From Hyphomonadaceae bacterium (lineage in GTDB: Bacteria; Pseudomonadota; Alphaproteobacteria; Caulobacterales; Aquidulcibacteraceae), in NCBI GenBank assembly GCA_016791365.1, contig JAEUMT010000054.1, positions 1-54,371 on the forward strand: a stretch of DNA of 54,371 bases, read 5' to 3'. Positions within the stretch are counted from its first letter, which is position 1. Each line of letters begins with the position of its first letter. Below, piece by piece: positions 7 through 12,112 of the stretch. The translations under genes were made by a program, and so were the position numbers. The notes beneath the pieces are model-generated. The model ran no database searches. It was not told the origin of the DNA and saw only the letters and a list, made by a program, of their open reading frames with translations.

Positions 7-92
7 GGAAGGGTGGCCGAGTGGTTAATGGCAGCAGACTGTAAATCTGCCCGCGCGAGCGTACGCTGGTTCGAATCCAGCCCCTTCCACCA
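7..92 (+). tRNA. tRNA-Tyr (anticodon GUA)
   Basis: A full cloverleaf can be drawn. Acceptor arm GGAAGGG (7-13) pairs with CCCTTCC (82-88), the discriminator is A89 and CCA is encoded at 90-92. The anticodon loop sits in cagactGTAaatctg, which gives GUA for tyrosine. The long variable arm expected of a class II bacterial tRNA-Tyr is present (cccgcgcgagcgtacgc), followed by the TTCGAATCC T-arm. Confidence 0.97.
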
Positions 93-1934: not shown

Positions 1935-3649
1935 GCTTCGCCCCCGCCGCCAAAACGGGCGGCGAGCTCGACGACTTGATCGTCTTCGATCTTCTTGAAG
2001 AGTACGTCGGGCGGTGTGAAGGCGTGGCCGCGCGCCAGCAAGTCCCACACGCTTTTGTCATCTGCTTTCGGCCAGCCGCGCTTGTTTTCCGGCACGCCCA
2101 GCGCATCGAGCACGATCTTCGCCGCGTCGGGAATGAAGGGTTGCGCGAGAATAGCAAAGAGCGCCGCGGCATTGAGGCCTGTGCGGACGCCGACCGCGGC
2201 GGCGTCACGATCGGTTTTGAACGCTGTCCACGGCGCGGCAATCTGCAAGTACTCGTTTCCGGCGACCCATATGGCGCGAAGTTCAGCGGCGGCCTTGCGG
2301 TATTCCATTTGATCATGGAATTGCGTCAGCGCCGCGAGGCGTTCAGCGAATTCGGCGTATAGCTTTGCTTCGTGCGGGCCCGGCGCGCCACCCTCTGGAA
2401 CGGCGCTGTCGAACTTCGCCGCAGCGAACCGCGTGACGCGGTTCACGAAGTTGCCGAAGACGTTTGCGAGGTCTGCGTTGATGGTCTGCTGAAACTGCTC
2501 AAGCGTGAAAGCCGCATCCGAACTCTCGGGCGCGTTGGCCATCAAGTACCAGCGCCAATAATCGCTCGGCAAAATATCAAGCGCCTGATCCATGAAGATG
2601 CCGCGCTTGGACGAGGTTGAGAATTTGCCGCCGTACCATGTAACCCAGTTGAACGCCTTCAGGCGATCAACAAGCTTCCACGGCTCCTGGCTGCCCATGA
2701 TCGTCACCGGAAAGCTGACGGTGTGGAACGCGACATTATCCTTGCCCATGAACTGGATGTAGGTGACGTCGTCCGCGCCCTTGTCAGTGCGCCACCAGCG
2801 CTCCCAATCCTTGCCGCCGTTTGCTTCGGCCCATTCGACGGTCGAGCCGATGTACTCAACCGGCGCATCGAACCAGACGTAGAACACCTTGTTTTCAAAA
2901 CCCGGACGTATCTTGCCGTCTTGCGTAATCTTGATCCCCCACGACAGATCGCGGGTGATCGAACGATCAATAAGGCCCTCATCGAGCCATTTATAGGCGA
3001 TCGACCGCGCCAACGGCGGCCAGTCGGTGGCGGCATCGACCCAGGTGCGGATACGGTCCTGCATCTTGGGTTGCTTCAAGAAGAGATGCGCGGTGTCGCG
3101 CGCCTCGACATTGGTTGAGCCGGAAATCTTCGAGCGCGGGTTCTTCAACTCGATCGGATCGAGAAGCGTCCCGCAATTGTCGCACTGATCGCCGCGCGCG
3201 CGCTCGAAACCGCAATTGGGGCATGTGCCTTCAACGTACCGGTCCGGCAGGAAGCGCTTATCGTCGATCGAGTAAATCTGCTTCGAAACACGTTCCTCGA
3301 TCAAACCGTTCTTTTCCAGCACCTCGCAGAAATGCTGCGTGAGCTTGTGGTTCGGCGGATTGGACGAGCGGCCGAAATGGTCAAACGAGAGCTTAAAGCC
3401 GTCGCACGCGTCTTTCTGAATTTGGTATTGCTGCGCGCAATAGGTCGCGACCTCTTGCCCAGCCTCGGCGGCGGCGAGTTCAGCCGGCGTGCCGTGCTCA
3501 TCGGTCGCGCAGATGAACAGCACTTCGTGGCCCTGGAGGCGGCGAAAGCGCGCGTGAATATCCGCCGGCAGCATCGAACCGGCCAAATTGCCAAGGTGTT
3601 TGATGCCGTTGATGTACGGAAGTGCGGACGTGATGAGGTAGCGGGCCAT
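1931..3649 (-). CDS. metG: methionyl-tRNA synthetase
   Basis: This class I synthetase charges tRNA-Met in the cytoplasm. At 572 residues it covers the catalytic and anticodon-binding domains but has no C-terminal EMAP/Arc1p-type tRNA-binding extension. The HIGH-type motif lies in [12 protein letters not shown] near the N-terminus. A zinc knuckle is formed by C143-x2-C146 and C156-x2-C159. The KMSKS equivalent is FSTSSKRG, with the lysine at about residue 348, a variant I associate with alphaproteobacterial enzymes. The ATG at 3649 begins [12 protein letters not shown], as expected. The downstream GNAT gene overlaps by GTGA. Confidence 0.97.
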
Positions 3650-3695
3650 TATAGCCCGCTACCTAAGACGCTTCCTTGGCGCCAGCAAGGCGCGC

Positions 3696-5246
3696 TTACG
3701 CGATGCCCTTAAGTCGGTTGTATGCCGCGCGCATCAAGCCGCTGTAGCGCTCGACTTGACCGGAACCGTTGTAGCCGCGCGCGAAACCTTCCCAATCCTT
3801 GCGGACCAGTTCGTCGGCCAAGTTGTTAGCGCGCACGAACGCCGTGAACGCCTTCAATTGCTGAGACTGGTTCTTCGCCATGTCTGTCACGAACGACTTC
3901 GGATCGGCAAAACCGCAGGCAGCGTGATTGAATCCCATGATCTGGAAGAGACCATAACTCGCCGACGCCACCGCATTTTGCGGATCAAGAGCGTAGGCGA
4001 TTTTCAGCTGATTCCAGCGCTCGTCCTGTGTGCGCGGGTACTTTGAGGCATCCCACGTCGGATACGACACCGTCGGGTGGCTGGCGTCATACATGCGGTT
4101 GGTGCGGCGCGAGAAGATGTGCGGCTCGAACAGGATGATCGGGCGGCCATCGGCGCCGAACGCGCCGGCGCGGCCGCTTTCGACTTCAACGACGGCCTGC
4201 ACGGCTTCGATTTCGCAGCCCAACTGGACCGCCGCCGCTTCATAGTCCTCGCGCGTCAACGCCACGCTGTTCTGCGCCTTGAGTGACGCAAGGTAGCCAT
4301 CGTCGGCCGTGGGCGGCAGCGCCGCGTAAGCGGCGGCCAGCGCGGCGGCGTAACTCGCGGCGTTGGGCCCACCTTCATACTCGCCCGCGAACGTCGCCCA
4401 ATCCCGACGCTGCAATTCATCGGCAAGCCCGGCGCGCGCAACATAAGCTTCGAAAGCCGCCAATTGGCGCACTTCCGATTTCGCCATGTCATCAACGAAC
4501 GCAAACACGTTGGCGTAGCCCGCGGTCGCGAAATAGCGGCCGGGCAACTGAAACGCGCCCCAACTCGTGGCGCCGAGCGCCGCGGCGGGATCGAGCGCAT
4601 AGGCTTCCGCGACCTTAGCCCAACGCGCAGCCTGGTTGCCGCCGACAGGCGCGCGGCTCGTGCTGCTGGAGATCGTCGGATGCGACGCGTCGAAACGATG
4701 ACCCGTGAGCTCGCTGAAATAAAACGGCTCGAACGAGATCAAAATCTTGCCGCTCGAAAATCCCGGTCCCGCGCTCTCGACGCGCAGGATCGCCTTGATG
4801 ACGTTCGCATCGGCGCCAAAGCGCTGCGCGAGCGAAGCGATCTCCGTATCGGGCACGCGCGCGGCGTCCACCGCGCGGAGCGCGCCGAGCGAGAACCCTG
4901 ACGGCGGCGCAGTAACCGGCGGCGGTTCAGATGGCGGCGTCACCGGGGGCGGCGCCGGCGGTGTGACCGGCGGCGGCGCGGGTGGCGTCACAGGCGGAGG
5001 CGCAGGCGGCGTCGCCGGCGGAGGCGCAGGCGGCGTCACCGGCGGAGGCGCAGGCGGCGTCACCGGCGGAGGCGTAGGCGGCGTCACCGGCGGAGGTGCG
5101 GGAGGAGTCGCCGGGGGCGGCGCGGGCGGCGTGCGTGGCGGCGGCGGCGGCGCACGCGGTGGAGGCGGCGGCGGGGGCGGCGAAGTGGGACGCGTGCTCC
5201 CGCGAGTGCCGAAAATTGCGCGGAAAACGGAGTCCCAGAAGCTCAT
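3696..5246 (-). CDS. tandem N-acetylmuramidase-domain (DUF3380) protein with Pro-rich arm
   Basis: The product is a predicted peptidoglycan muramidase of about 516 residues. After a short N-terminus (MSFWDSVFRAIFG), residues of about 20-110 are Pro/Thr-rich with repeated PPPVTPPA octads. Two homologous N-acetylmuramidase domains follow, at about 135-320 and 335-516. Each has its putative catalytic Glu (VESAGPGF, E157; VEVESGRAGAF, E356) and the shared FEP...DASHPT motif. No signal peptide or lipobox is visible, as in phage endolysins. The ATG at 5246 is preferred because GGGG lies six bases upstream; 5252 is an alternative. It could be a domesticated endolysin or part of a lysis system, but no phage genes are nearby. 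Confidence 0.85.
   Translation of the reverse strand: MSFWDSVFRAIFGTRGSTRPTSPPPPPPPPRAPPPPPRTPPAPPPATPPAPPPVTPPTPPPVTPPAPPPVTPPAPPPATPPAPPPVTPPAPPPVTPPAPPPVTPPSEPPPVTAPPSGFSLGALRAVDAARVPDTEIASLAQRFGADANVIKAILRVESAGPGFSSGKILISFEPFYFSELTGHRFDASHPTISSSTSRAPVGGNQAARWAKVAEAYALDPAAALGATSWGAFQLPGRYFATAGYANVFAFVDDMAKSEVRQLAAFEAYVARAGLADELQRRDWATFAGEYEGGPNAASYAAALAAAYAALPPTADDGYLASLKAQNSVALTREDYEAAAVQLGCEIEAVQAVVEVESGRAGAFGADGRPIILFEPHIFSRRTNRMYDASHPTVSYPTWDASKYPRTQDERWNQLKIAYALDPQNAVASASYGLFQIMGFNHAACGFADPKSFVTDMAKNQSQQLKAFTAFVRANNLADELVRKDWEGFARGYNGSGQVERYSGLMRAAYNRLKGIA
4910..5182. repeat. 24-bp tandem repeats coding for Pro-rich octads
   Basis: About nine imperfect copies of a 24-base unit (ggcggcgtcaccggcggagg plus four bases on the + strand) lie in the 5' part of the muramidase gene. 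The unit encodes PPP(V/A)TPPA on the minus strand. The leftward copies are nearly identical and those nearest the gene start have degenerated into a proline run, so copy number probably varies by slippage or unequal recombination. Confidence 0.8.
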
Positions 5247-5407
5247 GCTCATCCCCGAATTTAGTTGTTCAGCCAACACCGCGTTCGGCGGCGTCCCACT
5301 TAGGCAGCGGCCCGCCTTAGCCATTTCTATGGCGGCGGGCAAACCACATGTCGGCGAAGGTCCCGCTTTCGCTGACGATCACAAAGTGGCAAAAGCCCGC
5401 TCCGCGC

Positions 5408-5450
5408 GCCGCGTTAGCTCAGCTGGTAGAGCATCTGATTTGTAATCAGG
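5408..5450 (+). pseudogene. 5' half of a disrupted tRNA-Thr (UGU)
   Basis: The stretch runs from the acceptor strand GCCGCGT through a normal D-arm (TAGCTCAGCTGGTAGAGCA) and the anticodon stem-loop tctgaTTTGTAAtcagg. It then stops matching a tRNA. The following bases (cactactccacagg) have no T-arm or acceptor complement. The missing 3' half lies at 7131-7172. Joined at the shared TTTGTAATCAGG, the halves make a complete 76-base-class tRNA-Thr whose acceptor strands pair perfectly (GCCGCGT with ACGCGGC). Confidence 0.85.
5439..5450. other. putative left attachment core (attL), 12-bp direct repeat
   Basis: TTTGTAATCAGG here is repeated exactly at 7131-7142. It covers the anticodon loop and 3' anticodon stem of the split tRNA-Thr, a usual crossover place for tyrosine recombinases. 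Inside the insert, two GTTTACAG copies lie about 70-95 bases away (5522, 5546) and could be integrase arm sites. Confidence 0.6.
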
Positions 5451-5520
5451 CACTACTCCACAGGCGCGCCAGCCTAGGCCCAAGAAACTCAAGGGAATTT
5501 CCCTGTTGAGACGCATGTGC

Positions 5521-5555
5521 AGTTTACAGAGTTGCCCACAGGCCGGTTTACAGCG
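5521..5555. repeat. arm-type direct repeats, left end
   Basis: AGTTTACAG (5521-5529) and GGTTTACAGCG (5545-5555) are same-orientation copies whose starts are 24 bases apart. The same two sequences recur at 7019-7047 near the other end of the insert, also in this order. The paired arrangement resembles integrase arm-binding sites. Confidence 0.5.
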
Positions 5556-5654
5556 CGAAAGGCCATTTCAAGCGTCTAGCCCCTGATCTTTAGACAGGTG
5601 CTCTGGCACGAAAGTGTTGGCCACCGCTCGCAACGTCGCTAGTGAAAACGCCGC

Positions 5655-5730
5655 GCCGCCTTAGCTCAGTTGGTAGAGCAACGGTTTTGTAAACCGTGGG
5701 TCGGGGGTTCGAGTCCCTCAGGCGGCACCA
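5655..5730 (+). tRNA. tRNA-Thr (anticodon UGU)
   Basis: This is an intact 76-base tRNA. GCCGCCT (5655-5661) pairs with AGGCGGC (5720-5726), the discriminator is A5727 and CCA is encoded at 5728-5730. The anticodon stem-loop acggtTTTGTAAaccgt gives UGU. It lies inside the insert that breaks the other tRNA-Thr(UGU), and its body differs from that gene at many stem positions, so it is not a recent copy of it. Confidence 0.96.
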
Positions 5731-5750
5731 TCCAAAGGGCGGTGCGATCC

Positions 5751-6416
5751 ATGTTTGGAATCGGCAAACCAACCTCGCCGCTATTTGATCGTCTTGTGGC
5801 GACCGACTCTGCCAGTCTTGAAAAGCGCTTTGCGGCGCAAGGACAAGTGCTGCTTCCGGTTGTCATCGCAGGACTTTCGATGGCGTGCGCGGGTGCGTTC
5901 CTCCGAAGTTGCGCACCGCAAATGTCGCGCGTCACGGCATCGATCAAACGTGACTTGCTGGCGTTCGAGGCGCTCGCCTTTGCCGTTTACGCCGTCCGCG
6001 AGTCGTACATCCCTATGGCCGAATGGATCGACTTGGACATTCAAGACGAAGACGACGGCTATGTGGACGAAGAACGCGCTGCTTTGGCTCTGCGTTTCGC
6101 CTATGCCGCCGAGGCGTGCCAAAAATATGCTCAGCAAGACACCGGGTGGGATGCGAGCGCCATTTGGGAAAGTCGCTGGATGACCTACCACGCCGCACCG
6201 AGTATCGGAGGCCAGCAAGGTGCGGTCGAACGCTTCCGGTTCATTCTCATGACTATTGGGAAGGCTCGCGAACCGAAGATCACATACGGCAAGGTTTCGC
6301 TGGACCTTCAAGGTACGCTTGAAGCCATGGCTGCGACGCAAGCCTTTGTTTCAAAAATACCGGCTGCCTACGCCCGCACAATTGAGGCGTACATCGAGAA
6401 CCATGGGGTCACCTGA
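5751..6416 (+). CDS. hypothetical protein, cargo of the tRNA-Thr insert
   Basis: I do not recognise a family in this 221-residue protein. Residues of about 34-53 (VLLPVVIAGLSMACAGAFL) are hydrophobic and might be a buried helix or a single membrane segment. An acidic stretch follows (DLDIQDEDDGYVDEE), then a helical, Ala-rich C-terminal half. The ATG at 5751 is chosen because the tRNA ends at 5730 and aaaggg lies about 11 bases upstream of the ATG. The gene follows the intact tRNA-Thr by 20 bases and sits within the putative element, so transfer with that element is likely. Confidence 0.65.
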   Translation: MFGIGKPTSPLFDRLVATDSASLEKRFAAQGQVLLPVVIAGLSMACAGAFLRSCAPQMSRVTASIKRDLLAFEALAFAVYAVRESYIPMAEWIDLDIQDEDDGYVDEERAALALRFAYAAEACQKYAQQDTGWDASAIWESRWMTYHAAPSIGGQQGAVERFRFILMTIGKAREPKITYGKVSLDLQGTLEAMAATQAFVSKIPAAYARTIEAYIENHGVT

Positions 6417-6495
6417 CTCTCTCTAGGACAAGACCCCTCGCCGCACCGTCGATGTTTGTGCAAATGTTCCGGCTACGAAGTAATGGGGAGCACCG

Positions 6496-6963
6496 ATGCG
6501 CTGCATCCTACTGGCAATTGCCCTAGCAACCATTGCAGCTGTGGCGTTCGCGACGACCGCCCAGGCAGAAGGGAGCGCCCCCTTCTGCACGGTCGATGCC
6601 GCAGGTACGCACTGTCACTACTATGGCATGGACGCGTGTCGTGCGGCGGCAGGCCCGAGCGGCGTCTGTGTCGTCAACCAGCAAAGTCAAAACTCGGATC
6701 GCAGGGGATTCGATTTCACACCGCGCAATGACGTTTTGTCGGAGGCCCAGCGATGGCGGGACGCCGCACCCCCCGCACCCAACTCGTCAACATCGCGCCA
6801 ACAGCGATGGCTCCGCATGTGTGATAAAATGGAGCAGGGTTACTTCACCGATTTGGAATCTATCCGCTCCCGCTTCAACCCACCCATGACGGCAGACGAA
6901 TACGCAGAGGCCGCCGCCCAATTCCGTCGACGCGGCGAATACTGCCGTTCTCTTGCGAGATGA
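6496..6963 (+). CDS. small secreted Cys-containing protein, DUF3551-like
   Basis: The 155-residue protein has a clear signal peptide (MRCILLAIALATIAAVAFATTAQA, cleavage before EGSAPF). The mature N-terminus reads FCTVDAAGTHCHYYGMDAC with a later GVCVVN. This Cys/Tyr/Gly pattern resembles the short DUF3551 proteins of rhizobia, though that match is from memory. The rest is polar and unrecognised, with a late Cys (EYCRSLAR). It is the second gene of the tRNA-Thr insert, 80 bases after the first, and probably acts in the periplasm. Function unknown. Confidence 0.65.
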   Translation: MRCILLAIALATIAAVAFATTAQAEGSAPFCTVDAAGTHCHYYGMDACRAAAGPSGVCVVNQQSQNSDRRGFDFTPRNDVLSEAQRWRDAAPPAPNSSTSRQQRWLRMCDKMEQGYFTDLESIRSRFNPPMTADEYAEAAAQFRRRGEYCRSLAR

Positions 6964-7018
6964 CCACTGTGAATTGCCGCCGTGCTTCGCCGCGTAACGC
7001 CACAGGGGCTAACCAAGC

Positions 7019-7098
7019 AGTTTACAGCCGTTCGGCGGTTTACAGCGTCAAACACGAAAGCGAACGTTTTCAGCGTTCCAAGGCGAGACGGTTTACAA
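7019..7098. repeat. arm-type direct repeats, right end
   Basis: AGTTTACAG (7019-7027) and GGTTTACAGCG (7037-7047) repeat the pair seen at 5521-5555, here 18 bases apart. A third partial copy, ACGGTTTACAAA, lies at about 7087-7098. They are 33-111 bases inside the right-hand core sequence. Confidence 0.5.
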
Positions 7099-7130
7099 AT
7101 CCGCCTTGAAAACAAAGGCGCGGCCCTTGT

Positions 7131-7142
7131 TTTGTAATCAGG
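7131..7142. other. putative right attachment core (attR), 12-bp direct repeat
   Basis: Exact copy of TTTGTAATCAGG from 5439-5450. The bases before it (cggcccttgt) are not tRNA sequence, while the bases after it continue the tRNA-Thr. Confidence 0.6.
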
Positions 7143-7172
7143 GGGTCAGGGGTTCGAGTCCCTTACGCGGCA
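7131..7172 (+). pseudogene. 3' half of the disrupted tRNA-Thr (UGU)
   Basis: The stretch holds the anticodon loop TTTGTAA, the 3' anticodon stem, the variable loop, the T-arm (caggGGTTCGAGTCccttg type) and the acceptor strand ACGCGGC with discriminator A7172. The next three bases are CCG, not CCA. The matching 5' half is at 5408-5450. Confidence 0.85.
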
Positions 7173-7297
7173 CCGGTTTTCTAAGGCGCTGTTTCGCACC
7201 GGCTTTCTTTTCCACCGTCCCGGGCCTGAGACGCTTCGCCCGCTTGCGCGCACGTTCGGCAGGCGGGAATGTCCACCGCACTCTAAGGGGAACTCAC

Positions 7298-7789
7298 ATG
7301 CGCGCTTTGATCGTCGCCGCTTTTTTTGCCCTCTCCGCCTGCGGATCCGCGGATGCGCCGCCGACGCCCAGCGAGCAAGCAGAGACCCCGCCGGCGTCCA
7401 GCGAACAAGTGACGACGGATCCCGCCGCCGAAGAGATGCAGACCAGAATCGCAGCGCTGGCCGCCCCCTACAATCAGGCCAATTACGAAGCTGGCCGCCG
7501 CGCCTTCGCACAATGCCGCTCATGCCATGTCATTCAGGCCGGCGCGCCGCATCGCGTGGGACCAAACCTGCACGGCATTTTTGGACGCGCGATCGGCACG
7601 GCCGACGGCTTTGCCTATTCGCAAGCCGTACAGGACGCCGACTTCGTGTGGGACGCCGATCATCTCGATCATTGGCTGCAGAACCCGCAGACATTCCTGC
7701 CCGGAAACCGCATGGCGTTCGCCGGCGTGCGTGATGAAACGCAGCGCCGCGATCTCATCGCCTACCTGATGGTCGAAGCGCAGCCCTGA
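7298..7789 (+). CDS. lipoprotein class I cytochrome c
   Basis: This is a 163-residue mono-haem cytochrome c, an electron carrier held at the periplasmic face by a lipid anchor. The ATG at 7298 follows a GGGGAA ribosome site and gives a lipoprotein signal (MRALIVAAFFALSACGS; lipobox LSAC). A Pro/Glu/Thr-rich linker leads to the haem site C73-R-S-C76-H77. The distal ligand is probably M139 in PGNRMAFAGV, as in the small cytochrome c2/c550 type. The C-terminal helix reads RRDLIAYLMVEAQP. The redox partner is unknown; no oxidase or dehydrogenase lies beside it. The gene converges with the RND permease gene, with no gap. Confidence 0.92.
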   Translation: MRALIVAAFFALSACGSADAPPTPSEQAETPPASSEQVTTDPAAEEMQTRIAALAAPYNQANYEAGRRAFAQCRSCHVIQAGAPHRVGPNLHGIFGRAIGTADGFAYSQAVQDADFVWDADHLDHWLQNPQTFLPGNRMAFAGVRDETQRRDLIAYLMVEAQP

Positions 7790-10700
7790 CTATTCGGCCG
7801 GACGGGCGACCGCCTGATCGTGCTCATATGCTTCGATTTCCTTGGCGGTCGCTTCGGGTGATTTCGTGAACCGCGCCAAGAGATCGTAGAATACCGGAAC
7901 CACGAAGAGCGTCAGCAACGTCGCGACCAACAATCCGAAGAAGATCACGGTGCCGATGGTGAAGCGGCTCTCGGCGCCTGCACCGTGGCCGAGAATCAGC
8001 GGAATCGCGCCGACAATCGTCGCGACCGACGTCATCAGCACCGGGCGAATGCGCAAATCCGACGCTTCGATAATGGCGTCGCGTATGTTCTTGCCCTCAT
8101 CGCGCAGCTGATTGGCGAACTCAACGATCAAAATGCCGTTCTTCGCCGCCAATGCGATCAAGATAATGAGGCCGATCTCGCTGTAGATATTCAAGGTACC
8201 GTTGAACAAGAAGAGGCCGAATAGCCCCCCTGTCAGCGCCAGCGGCACGGACACCATGATCGTGATCGGGTGGACGAAACTCTCAAATTGCGCGGCAAGC
8301 ACCAGGAACACGACGATGAGCGCGAAAATGAACGCAAACACGATCGCGCCACTTGATTGCTTGAACTGGCGCGCGGCGCCGGTGTAGTCGATCGCAATCG
8401 GCTCATTGCCGATTTCGGTCCGCGCCACGCTTTCCAGTTCATTCAATGCGTCGCCGATCGCGTAATCTCCCGGGATCGACGCGGAGATCGTCACCGCGGC
8501 TTGCCGGTTCATGCGCCTGCGCTCGGCGGAATCGCCCACGGTGTTGAAGGTCACCAAAGTCGAAAGCGGAATAAGCTCGCCGCCGCGCTCCGAGCGCACG
8601 TATTTGTTGCCAAGGTCGGCGATGTTGGAGCGCTCATCGCGCTCAGCTTGCAGGTAAACGTAATATTCCTCGCCACGATCACTGATCGTATTCACGCGCC
8701 GCGCGCCCATGGTGGCTTCAAGCGTGCGGCCGACCGTTTGCACGGACACGCCAAGCGCCGCGGCCCGTTCCCGATCGATATTGACCAGCACCCGCGGTGA
8801 GGTCGGTTGATAATTCATGCGCGGGCGCTGGAAGTTCGGGTTTTCGCGCAACCGGTCCATGATGCGCTCCGACACCGCAGCCAGTTGCTCATAGGTCGAA
8901 CCCAGCAGAACGATAGAGGCCCCGTCAGCGCCGCCGCCACCGCCGCCGCCGCCTTGAAACGGGTTCTGCATGCGTGCGCGGACTGTTGCGCCGGGGATCG
9001 ACGCGAAACGCTGATTGAGCTCGGTTTCAATGTCCGCGCCGCTGCGCTCACGATGCTCCCAGTCGGCAAGGAAAACACGGCCGATGCCGGACGAAAAACG
9101 GTTCGTCCCGGCGTCGCCAAATCCGGGCGCGACAATCATCACACGCTGCGCTTCGCCACTCTCGACGTAGGCCAGAAGAATGTCCTCCACCTGCCCCATG
9201 ACGCGGCTCATGTACTCAAAGCCCGCACCTTCGGGCGCTTGCGCAAAGATCGTGAGGTTGCCGCGATCTTCGGGCGGCGTGAGCTCCGAGGAAAGTTGGG
9301 TGAACAGATAGCCGCCAAGCACAAGCACGCCGGCAAATACCGCGAAGACGAGCGGCTTGGCGTTCATCGCGGCTTCGAGCGAGGCGCGATAGGATGCGCG
9401 CAAGCCGTCGAGAACATGGTCCACGAAGCGTGAAAGCCTGGTGCTGCTCTTCACCGGCTTCATGAGCTTCGAGCACATCATCGGCGACAGCGAAAGCGCC
9501 GCGAACGCCGAAATCACAACGACGCCCGCGATCGTAACGGCCAACTCGACGAACAATCGGCCGACATATCCGCCGACGAACAGGAGCGGCAGGAACACCG
9601 CGACAAGAACCGCGGACGTCGCGACAATCGCGAAGAACACTTGCCGCGAACCGCGCTCGGCCGCCACCAGTGGCGGCTCACCGAGCGTATCGACGCGCCG
9701 CTGCGCATTTTCGAGAACGACAATGGAATCGTCGACAACCAAACCAATGGCGAGAACCAGCGCCAGGAGGGTGAGCAGGTTTATCGAAAATCCGAACAGC
9801 AACAGGATCAGAAACGCGCCAATCAAGCAAACCGGGATCACCGCCGCGGGAATGAAGGCCGCACGCCAGGATCCGAGGAACAGGAAGATGACGAGAACGA
9901 CCAGCACCGTGGATTCCAACAGCGTCTGGCCGACGCGTTGGATGGCCCGGTCGATAAACACGGTTGAATCGTAAGTGATGACGATGTCGGTTCCATCAGG
10001 AAGCGTCGGCCGGATACGCTCAACCTCGTCCTTGACCAGGCGCCCGACATCCAACGCGTTCGACCGCGATTGCCGAACGATGCCAAGACCGACCTGCTCA
10101 ACGCCGTTGCCGCGAAAGAGGCTGCGCCGTTCCTCGGGCTCGATTTCGACGCGCGCTATATCGCCGAGCCGAACCACGGCATCGTCACCGCCCGCGCCGG
10201 CGATTGGCAAACGCTGGAATTGTTCAGGCGTCTCAAACGCCCTTGCGACACGCACCTGGTAGTCGCGTTCCTCGCTCTGGACGTAACCGGCGGGAAGCTC
10301 GATGTTTTGCGATCTGAGGGAATTCTCGACGTCCTGCACCGTGATGCCCCGCGCGGCCATCGCATTGGTGTCGAGCCAAATGCGCAGCGCTCTGCGGAAA
10401 CCGCCCCCGATTTGGACGTTAGCGACGCCGTTCAAGACCGCGAGACGATCAACGACGTAACGATCAGCGTAATCTGTCAGCGCCATGCGATCGAGCGTCG
10501 TCGACTGGAGGCTGAACCAGATAATCGCATCCGCATCCGCGTCCGCTTTACGGATTACGGGCTCATCGATATCGGCCGGCAACTGGCCCCGCGCGCGGCT
10601 GACGGCGTTGCGAACATCGTTGGTTGCATCTTCCAGGTCGCGATCGAGCGTAAACTCAATGTTGATCGACGAGCGCCCATCGCGACTGGTGCCGTTGATC

Positions 10701-10936
10701 ACATCGATGCCATCGATACCGGACAGCTGATCTTCAATGACGCGCGTGATTTGGTTTTCGACCACTTGCGCGGATGCGCCCGGATAGCTCGCGTTCACCG
10801 ACACGACCGGCCGATCAACGTCCGGCAACTCCCGAAGCGGAAGCCGCGTGAACGAGATCAGGCCAAACGCGATAATGATGAGCGAAAACACCGTCGCCAG
10901 CACGGGGCGGCGAACAGAGAGATCAGAAAGCGTCAT
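7790..10936 (-). CDS. RND efflux transporter permease, HAE1/AcrB-like
   Basis: This inner-membrane proton-driven pump exports hydrophobic or amphiphilic compounds through a tripartite complex. The 1048-residue length fits the family. The N-terminal membrane helix reads LSVRRPVLATVFSLIIIAFG, followed by the PN1/PN2 porter domain. Helix 4 carries the proton-relay pair D402-D403 (GLVVDDSIVVLENAQRR). The second half repeats the layout, with K932 in helix 10 (AAKNGILIVEFANQ). A Gly run (GGGGGGGGADGAS) lies in the second porter region. The adaptor gene is immediately upstream, 9 bases away. No outer-membrane TolC-type gene is adjacent. Substrate cannot be read from sequence. Confidence 0.95.
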   Translation of the reverse strand: MTLSDLSVRRPVLATVFSLIIIAFGLISFTRLPLRELPDVDRPVVSVNASYPGASAQVVENQITRVIEDQLSGIDGIDVINGTSRDGRSSINIEFTLDRDLEDATNDVRNAVSRARGQLPADIDEPVIRKADADADAIIWFSLQSTTLDRMALTDYADRYVVDRLAVLNGVANVQIGGGFRRALRIWLDTNAMAARGITVQDVENSLRSQNIELPAGYVQSEERDYQVRVARAFETPEQFQRLPIAGAGGDDAVVRLGDIARVEIEPEERRSLFRGNGVEQVGLGIVRQSRSNALDVGRLVKDEVERIRPTLPDGTDIVITYDSTVFIDRAIQRVGQTLLESTVLVVLVIFLFLGSWRAAFIPAAVIPVCLIGAFLILLLFGFSINLLTLLALVLAIGLVVDDSIVVLENAQRRVDTLGEPPLVAAERGSRQVFFAIVATSAVLVAVFLPLLFVGGYVGRLFVELAVTIAGVVVISAFAALSLSPMMCSKLMKPVKSSTRLSRFVDHVLDGLRASYRASLEAAMNAKPLVFAVFAGVLVLGGYLFTQLSSELTPPEDRGNLTIFAQAPEGAGFEYMSRVMGQVEDILLAYVESGEAQRVMIVAPGFGDAGTNRFSSGIGRVFLADWEHRERSGADIETELNQRFASIPGATVRARMQNPFQGGGGGGGGADGASIVLLGSTYEQLAAVSERIMDRLRENPNFQRPRMNYQPTSPRVLVNIDRERAAALGVSVQTVGRTLEATMGARRVNTISDRGEEYYVYLQAERDERSNIADLGNKYVRSERGGELIPLSTLVTFNTVGDSAERRRMNRQAAVTISASIPGDYAIGDALNELESVARTEIGNEPIAIDYTGAARQFKQSSGAIVFAFIFALIVVFLVLAAQFESFVHPITIMVSVPLALTGGLFGLFLFNGTLNIYSEIGLIILIALAAKNGILIVEFANQLRDEGKNIRDAIIEASDLRIRPVLMTSVATIVGAIPLILGHGAGAESRFTIGTVIFFGLLVATLLTLFVVPVFYDLLARFTKSPEATAKEIEAYEHDQAVARPAE

Positions 10937-10945
10937 GGCGTGCGC

Positions 10946-12112
10946 TTACCGGCCGCGCGGACGAAGCGGGAGTGAGCCCTCGGCAGCCGGCGGCGCGTCG
11001 CCGATTTGAACCGTTTGCCCAGGCCGGACGCTCTGCACCCCCTCAGTGATAACCCGGTCGCCCGGGTTGAGGCCTTCCAGAACCTCGGCCATGCCGCCAG
11101 CGCGTTGCCCTGTGCTGATACGCACAAGCTCCACGGATTGAGCGCCTTCGCGCGTGACGACCCGATATACGTATGCGCCATCAATTTGATCGAGAATGGC
11201 GATCTCAGGGATCGCCAGCGCTTGGCGCGGGTTCGAGCGCACATCGACCGTCATCAACATGCCGGGGCGCAGCGTTCCGTCCGCGTTCGGAAGAATGGCG
11301 CGGACGCGCACGGTGCGCGTCGCCGGATCGATGCGGCTATCTACGCTCGCAATCGAACCGGTGAACGTCTGATCCGGATAAGCGGACGTGCGTGCAACAA
11401 GTTCGACGCCCTGTTGCACACGCGCGATCTGCGTTTCGGTGATCGTGAAATCGAGTTTGATTTGTGACGTGTCGTCCAGCGTGCCGATCTGGTCGCCCGG
11501 CCGCACATACTGCCCAGGGCTCGCAAGGCGAAGCCCGACAATGCCGGCGAACGGCGCGCGAATGGTGCGGTCGGCGATGCGCGAACCGCCAGCATTCAGG
11601 CGCGCCTCAGCCGCTTCGGCGGCGGCGCGCACAGTGTCGAGCCGCGCCTGCGAGGCAAAGCCGCGATCAAACAATTCTTGCGTTCGGCGCAGATCTTCCT
11701 GCGCAGCCTGGTTCGAAGCACGCACTTCGGCGAGATCGGCCGCCTGCTCAACGCTCGACATTTCCACGAGCACTTGTCCGGCGCGAACGCGGTCGCCGCT
11801 CTCAAATCGCAAACGACGGATTGTGTCGGCGACCTTCGGAGTCAGGACGATGCTCTCAAGCGCCTGAGCCGTCCCGATCGCCTGCAACCCATCCGTGAAC
11901 GTGTGCATGCCCGCCGCGACGGCAAGCACCGCCGGCGAGCCGCCACCGCCCGGACCACCTCGTCCACCAGGCCCGGGCGCCGCCGGGGCCGCGCTGTTAT
12001 CTCCACCAAATACCGCATCGGTCGCCGACTTGCCGACGACCACCAGCAGCATCAGTGCAAGACCAGCAACGACGACCGCCGCAAAGCCAAAGCGTCTGAA
12101 GAGCCCCATCAT
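10946..12112 (-). CDS. RND efflux periplasmic adaptor (membrane fusion protein)
   Basis: The 388-residue HlyD/AcrA-type adaptor links the RND pump to an outer-membrane channel. It has an N-terminal membrane anchor (FGFAAVVVAGLALMLLVVVG), a Gly/Pro-rich linker (APGPGGRGGPGGGG), then lipoyl/biotinyl halves flanking an Ala-rich coiled-coil hairpin (ASNQAAQEDLRRTQELFDRG). The beta-barrel and membrane-proximal domains follow (VGLRLASPGQYVRPGDQIG; GLNPGDRVITEGVQSVRPGQ). The ATG at 12112 has AGGAA about 10 bases upstream; an in-frame upstream start looks unlikely. It is the first gene of a two-gene operon with the permease. Confidence 0.93.
   Translation of the reverse strand: MMGLFRRFGFAAVVVAGLALMLLVVVGKSATDAVFGGDNSAAPAAPGPGGRGGPGGGGSPAVLAVAAGMHTFTDGLQAIGTAQALESIVLTPKVADTIRRLRFESGDRVRAGQVLVEMSSVEQAADLAEVRASNQAAQEDLRRTQELFDRGFASQARLDTVRAAAEAAEARLNAGGSRIADRTIRAPFAGIVGLRLASPGQYVRPGDQIGTLDDTSQIKLDFTITETQIARVQQGVELVARTSAYPDQTFTGSIASVDSRIDPATRTVRVRAILPNADGTLRPGMLMTVDVRSNPRQALAIPEIAILDQIDGAYVYRVVTREGAQSVELVRISTGQRAGGMAEVLEGLNPGDRVITEGVQSVRPGQTVQIGDAPPAAEGSLPLRPRGR

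Follow-up and report, generated by a model that had tools for sequence, protein, structure and literature searches.

The window analyzed here, the whole stretch of 54,371 nucleotides of contig JAEUMT010000054.1 from a Hyphomonadaceae bacterium (assembly GCA_016791365.1), contains the two ends of one tRNA-Thr(UGU) gene separated by an insert. This raises the question of what kind of DNA broke the gene and how the cell can do without it. An original prediction had proposed an integrative element that inserted in the anticodon loop and supplies a replacement tRNA-Thr(UGU).

A host tRNA-Thr(UGU) gene is split in its anticodon loop

The features of the locus, all on the + strand, are:

5408 to 5450, +, 5' half of the host tRNA-Thr(UGU) gene, ending with the core (matches intact genes of relatives)
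5439 to 5450, +, attL, left copy of the 12-bp core TTTGTAATCAGG (direct repeat)
5451 to 5654, +, left end of the insert between core and tRNA, one arm of the putative attachment site
5522 to 5553, +, left direct-repeat pair GTTTACAG, arm-site-like, starting 83 and 107 nt from the core start (motif search)
5655 to 5730, +, replacement tRNA-Thr(UGU), complete, with encoded CCA (ARAGORN, Rfam)
5751 to 6416, +, ORF1, 221 aa, with a below-cut-off resemblance to DUF3693 (Pfam, E 0.05)
6496 to 6963, +, ORF2, 155 aa, weakly DUF3551-like (Pfam, 25.6 bits, cut-off 26.5)
7020 to 7045, +, right direct-repeat pair GTTTACAG, starting 111 and 93 nt before the core (motif search)
7131 to 7142, +, attR, right copy of the core TTTGTAATCAGG (direct repeat)
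7131 to 7174, +, displaced 3' half of the host tRNA-Thr(UGU) gene (matches intact genes of relatives)

The two halves lie about 1.69 kb apart, as had been predicted, and when joined in silico they match the intact tRNA-Thr of three relatives (G024, G043, and G045) at 99% over 75/75 nt. The same 12 bases were indeed found at each junction. The repeat begins precisely at the 7-nt anticodon loop and comprises this entire loop and five bases of the 3' stem. Its copies, spaced 1,692 bp from start to start, are the only two in the 3.46-Mb assembly, and the insert measures 1,692 bp when one core copy is counted. Neither junction rebuilds the host tRNA, again as predicted, and both are incomplete: identity ends directly after the core, and the next 30 bases show no resemblance to a tRNA. 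The window species is represented by one genome, from whose assembly the junctions were read.

The uninterrupted gene that the original prediction expected in relatives was found in G045 and G024. In both, the left flank (3601 to 5450) is contiguous with the right flank (7128 to 10991 in G045 and 7128 to 10972 in G024) without an insert. The flanks are thus contiguous around an intact tRNA-Thr gene, indicating that the split arose by insertion in the lineage of the window. G043 has the same intact gene, adjoining an island.

The insert carries the only tRNA-Thr(UGU) gene found in the assembly

The complete tRNA-Thr(UGU) of different sequence that the insert had been predicted to carry is called by both ARAGORN and Rfam (74.2 bits). 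It folds and scores well, starts 205 bp beyond the left core and runs in the same direction as the host gene. The draft assembly (65 contigs, 99.47% complete, 2% estimated contamination) yielded 46 tRNA-like matches with Rfam. ARAGORN called 44 of these, leaving C41:86760-86902 and C42:17981-18052 (at a contig end) uncalled. The tRNA-Thr genes of this genome read UGU (5655-5730 only), CGU, and GGU. No second tRNA-Thr(UGU) was found among the 46 matches (two of them uncalled by ARAGORN) of this 99.47%-complete assembly, in line with the predicted replacement, and within these matches the disrupted gene is the only native gene of its kind. By standard pairing rules a UGU tRNA is needed for reading ACA, which accounts for 103 of the 796 threonine codons in 41 long ORFs of the window.

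Some minor observations concern tRNA genes in this and related assemblies. The uncalled match on C41 (L104) is 143 nt long, scores 44.9 bits and lies among several tRNA-like pieces. The tRNA-Tyr at the start of the window (7-92) also ends contig C14 (6-91), so that the assembly breaks at a shared end. Redundancy of tRNA-Thr(UGU) occurs in the family, as G070 has two complete genes (C31 and C81; L169 and L168), and G021 shows two full-length matches (C57 and C36).

The insert is bounded by paired repeats and has no recognisable integrase

Tyrosine-integrase attachment sites consist of a core plus arm-type sites toward the element ends. The GTTTACAG pairs, which have the same orientation at the left and right ends, give the insert this layout, and a further GTTTACA is present at 7091 near its right end. 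This supports a tyrosine-integrase attachment site in which the repeats would be bound as arms. Matches to the pair pattern are confined to 5522 and 7020: it matched one of 61 relatives and one of 385 class genomes, in each case the genome of the window itself, and a reversed control pattern matched one of 61 and two of 385. No other element with GTTTACAG arms was found in the 61 relatives, the 385-genome class sample or viral contigs. A stricter arm-pair pattern gave no match in viral contigs and three in genome contigs (Spirosoma, Ca. Kaiserbacteria, and Lachnospiraceae), which were taken as chance matches in unrelated organisms.

Between the arms lie only the tRNA, ORF1 and ORF2. Neither the ORFs of the insert nor a six-frame Pfam search revealed an integrase, a trace of one or a transposase; phage families gave only weak sub-threshold matches in the insert and none above cut-off. 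The sole hint of phage ancestry is the resemblance of ORF1 to the DUF3693 'phage related protein' family, which is below cut-off (E 0.05). No relative of ORF1 was found among relatives, the class sample, plasmids, phages, viral contigs and genome contigs, and its single-sequence fold had a mean pLDDT of 36 and was not usable. ORF2 gave weak matches in four of 384 other class genomes, the best (E 3e-9 over 42 residues) in G361. With no other match to ORF1, there was no second copy of the insert in these searches, and no relative of the insert ends was found either. A crude scan of 5250-7300 gave no match to a sigma-70-like promoter. The GC content of the insert (58.2%) is under that of every one of 264 sliding stretches of the window, which fits a foreign origin.

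A hairpin at 7102-7123, GCCTTGAAAACAAAGGCGCG, recurs exactly in several congeners. At four places (G000:C49, G043:C1, G024:C113, and G021:C128) it lies 69-76 bp beyond the end of a tyrosine-recombinase domain; it is perhaps a conserved terminator.

Other elements use the same anticodon loop

Among 29 other genomes of the genus, 24 have a tRNA-Thr(UGU) with the TTTGTAATCAGG core and one (G006) has a tRNA-Thr(UGU) with a different stem; none was seen in G003, G012, G015, and G044, which are 57-82% complete. In G043 a 32.6-kb island occupies the tRNA-Thr(UGU); the gene is rebuilt, its 3' half is displaced, and an integrase domain lies about 0.9 kb inside the displaced-half end. In G031, from another family of the order, a 1.5-kb insert at the same core has rebuilt the gene, with 45/45 bases repeated; PF00589 had no match in this insert and no listed ORF was recognised as an integrase. 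A displaced 3' half is also present in G011, where the 5' boundary agrees to within one base. The anticodon loop of tRNA-Thr(UGU) is therefore a repeatedly used target.

In the inserts of the window, G043 and G031, a direct-repeat pair marks either end, and the distances to the core are comparable: +83 to +117 on one side (in G031 also +177) and -90 to -149 on the other (in the window also -40). The motif of the repeats differs per insert, and each is missing from the end zones of the other two. The small insert of G031 (C3, L077, 9640-11216) encloses a 190-aa ORF and is bordered on either side by TGTGACCCC repeats. On the same contig a 514-aa ORF, serine-recombinase-like by eye, ends within the displaced 3' half.

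Proposed origin of the insert

Taken together, it is highly probable that the insert is a small, likely decayed integrative element that entered the anticodon loop of tRNA-Thr(UGU) without restoring the gene, and that the cell now relies on the tRNA of the element. An integrase, now absent, would have joined the element to the loop by tyrosine-integrase-type recombination at the 12-bp core. The attachment site of the element would share the core alone with the host gene, so that the tRNA would be broken at both junctions and rebuilt at neither. Cells would have survived because the complete tRNA-Thr(UGU) of the element took over, and this gene would be expressed and essential. A larger element would then have shrunk, losing its integrase and keeping the attachment arms, the indispensable tRNA and two small genes. 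Such an element could shed its other genes; the tRNA could go only by precise exit, and what remains might still be mobilised in trans. The element model of the original prediction is supported by the empty sites and the arm-site-like architecture. Its further suggestion that loss of the element would be costly applies to imprecise loss, whereas precise excision by recombination between the two cores would rebuild the native gene.

The most serious alternative, which we nevertheless regard as unlikely, is that the insert is a satellite: intact, minimal and non-autonomous, it would depend for integration and excision on a trans-acting integrase encoded elsewhere. An arm, the tRNA, two open ORFs and a second arm follow each other compactly, and both ends are complete; this would suit such an element, as would the similar-sized integrase-less element with paired end repeats in the same tRNA of G031. 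However, the 61 relatives, the 385 class genomes and viral contigs yielded no helper that shares the arm motif, and a satellite sits less well with an insert that has no second copy and an ORF1 that has no other match. We consider a decayed remainder about twice as likely as a satellite moved in trans.

The element might also have restored the host tRNA at first with a full 3' half that was later lost, the second tRNA taking over afterwards. The elements of G043 and G031 do restore the gene, and the loss would be harmless once a second tRNA was aboard. Considering that identity stops directly after the core, that the following 30 bases are not tRNA-like and that the arm spacing (+83 and +107) still resembles that of intact sites, we consider this sequence of events improbable. 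Transposon insertion with a 12-bp target duplication would account for the direct repeat and the empty site but is very improbable, as the insert ends have no I11-type terminal inverted repeats (none were found there), no transposase is among the Pfam matches, and the position is the anticodon loop used by other elements. An assembly artefact, conceivable in a draft of 65 contigs with 2% estimated contamination, is hardly credible, since flanks and gene order match relatives on both sides, the insert shows a coherent attachment-site layout, and a 12-bp repeat, being shorter than the usual assembly k-mers, is unlikely to cause a mis-join.

The replacement tRNA is identical to the resident tRNA-Thr(UGU) of a congener

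Compared to the form in G022, which has the usual stem, the replacement tRNA differs at seven of 76 positions (16, 27, 29, 31, 39, 41, and 43). Positions 27, 29, 31, 39, 41, and 43 make up three complete anticodon-stem pairs, all of which are still paired; the loop and all remaining positions are the same. The core sites of an integrase of this family are expected at the stem arms flanking the 7-bp loop, and changes at these positions would spoil the attachment site and spare the tRNA. The altered stem thus probably keeps the tRNA of the element from serving as an attachment site itself. The usual stem is found in 24 genomes of the genus and in the family genomes G047, G052, G070 (two genes), G082, and G083.

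Similar stems occur in tRNA-Thr(UGU) of distant alphaproteobacteria (G177, 92%; G299, 91%), and a foreign origin of the stem is possible. A source in another order, considered on account of these resident-like genes, was set aside for the immediate origin of the tRNA, because the tRNA-Thr(UGU) of the congener G006, a genome outside the 385-genome class sample, is identical to that of the element over 76/76 nt. In G006 this tRNA is at the syntenic native locus, with native neighbours and no insert. Identity to the window extends only a few bases past the tRNA. A search of the 56 kb surrounding it gave no GTTTACAG pair, so the locus bears no direct trace of the element.

A tree of three neighbouring proteins, covering 24 of 30 labels (29 fetched ones and the window), was used for its shallow groupings, as its deep nodes are weak (28-50). 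G011, G041, G047, G070b, G082, and G083 were left out because their stretches cover too little of these proteins. The closest grouping of G006 is with G007 and G022 (support 87), both of which have the usual stem, and the stem change in G006 is therefore most simply a derived one. The window pairs with G043 (95), and G004, G045, and G024 join them in one clade (97-100), so that the identical tRNAs are found in separate parts of the genus. Either the tRNA of the element came from a G006-like cell, or that of G006 came from such an element, or gene conversion took place. That identity is confined to the tRNA fits an exchange inside this gene, whichever side was the donor, and hosts and elements may trade tRNA alleles.

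As the same tRNA is resident in G006, the replacement tRNA probably works, and its presence there suggests that it can alone serve a cell of the genus (G006 is 83% complete). A more far-reaching reading, which we put forward tentatively and hold to be unlikely, is that integrative elements renew tRNA genes of the genus with a functional, integrase-proof version of a congeneric tRNA-Thr, its stem rewritten at three of five pairs, which has become resident in G006 and closes the site to new integration. The tRNA of G006 would then stem either from gene conversion or from an element that collapsed when tRNA copies recombined with each other, and the split locus in the window would show such a replacement caught halfway. 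The window and G006 together offer a direct way to test tRNA gene swapping between bacterial species, and whether changed anticodon stems shield tRNA genes from integrases.

Comparison with known systems

The original prediction had called the replacement an unusual way to pay for a broken gene. Such a payment is seen here, and two earlier reports describe the same kind of strategy (PMC10865867, by Guerrero-Bustamante and Hatfull, 2024; PMC11476347). The first of these describes tRNA-dependent lysogeny, shown experimentally in actinobacteriophages and proposed for the Lactobacillus prophage Lj965, with cores of 8-17 bp (its Table 2). Shared with our locus are a short core in a host tRNA (here 12 bp) that is reconstructed at neither junction, an element-borne tRNA of the same isotype, paired arm-type sites (here candidate ones), and a broken gene that is the host's only one of its isotype (here UGU, within the 46 matches). 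The lysogeny cases are whole temperate phages with a tyrosine integrase, whereas our insert is 1.69 kb long, resides in an alphaproteobacterium and contains neither recognised phage genes nor a recognised integrase. Also, the need for the tRNA was proven there by experiment, whereas here it is a prediction from sequence.

In islands and prophages of Sinorhizobium meliloti, tRNA genes broken by integration are replaced by an isoacceptor of the element that resembles genes of other alphaproteobacteria (2024, PMC11476347). As far as that report could be consulted, the elements are 3.2-89 kb in size, with an integrase in all site-specifically integrated ones; a later paper, in its accessible part, found no such features in phiLM21-like prophages (PMC12429752). 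The alphaproteobacterial host and the replacement of an inactivated tRNA by an isoacceptor of the element are common to both cases. Our insert differs in its 1.69 kb and its lack of a recognisable integrase, and the consulted text of that report describes no counterpart to the identical tRNA resident in the congener G006.

A cis-mobilizable element (CIME), described as an ICE or IME derivative that has kept its attachment sites and misses its integration genes (PMC5704250), resembles the insert in having attL and attR, here putative in function, and no integration or transfer genes. For the insert, neither ORF1 nor the ends led to a relative that would point to an ICE or IME ancestry, and a replacement tRNA is outside the CIME definition as given in the accessible text. 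Ordinary tRNA-targeting islands (Islander, PMC4383910), such as those in G043 and G031, share the tRNA, the crossover position and the paired end repeats; unlike the window insert, they bring along the 3' part and rebuild the gene. Among the listed titles and abstract openings of open-licence papers, we found no description of an integrase-less tRNA-replacing element or of a congener with the tRNA of an element as a resident gene. The logic of tRNA replacement is thus already known; new are the size of 1.69 kb, the lack of a recognisable integrase, the stem-altered tRNA and its resident twin in G006. With this locus, replacement of a tRNA by an integrated element is seen beyond recognisable phages and within 1.7 kb, which illustrates how far such an element may shrink if imprecise loss of its tRNA is not an option.

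Further tRNA-Thr(UGU) fragments in the genus

Several other candidate fragments were discarded. Tandem-looking tRNA pieces in G042 adjoin Ns and were set aside, G070:C81 was rejected as a lone 5' half as it is a complete second gene, and several of ten displaced core copies (e.g., G024:C16, G008:C2, G002:C91, and G028:C22) are chance-like 12-mers outside tRNA genes and were left unused. At G010:C12:106942, G014:C5:694930, and G021:C8:1929 (L081, L082, and L084), the tRNA-Thr anticodon arm is represented by about 25-30 bases outside any tRNA gene, possibly as a remnant of an attachment site; the G010 stretch has an integrase domain at a distance of about 0.1 kb. Finally, the tRNA-Thr(UGU) genes of the genus have a few distinct versions of the T-arm half and a nearly fixed anticodon stem, and the T-arm variation looks as if restoring islands had exchanged 3' halves.
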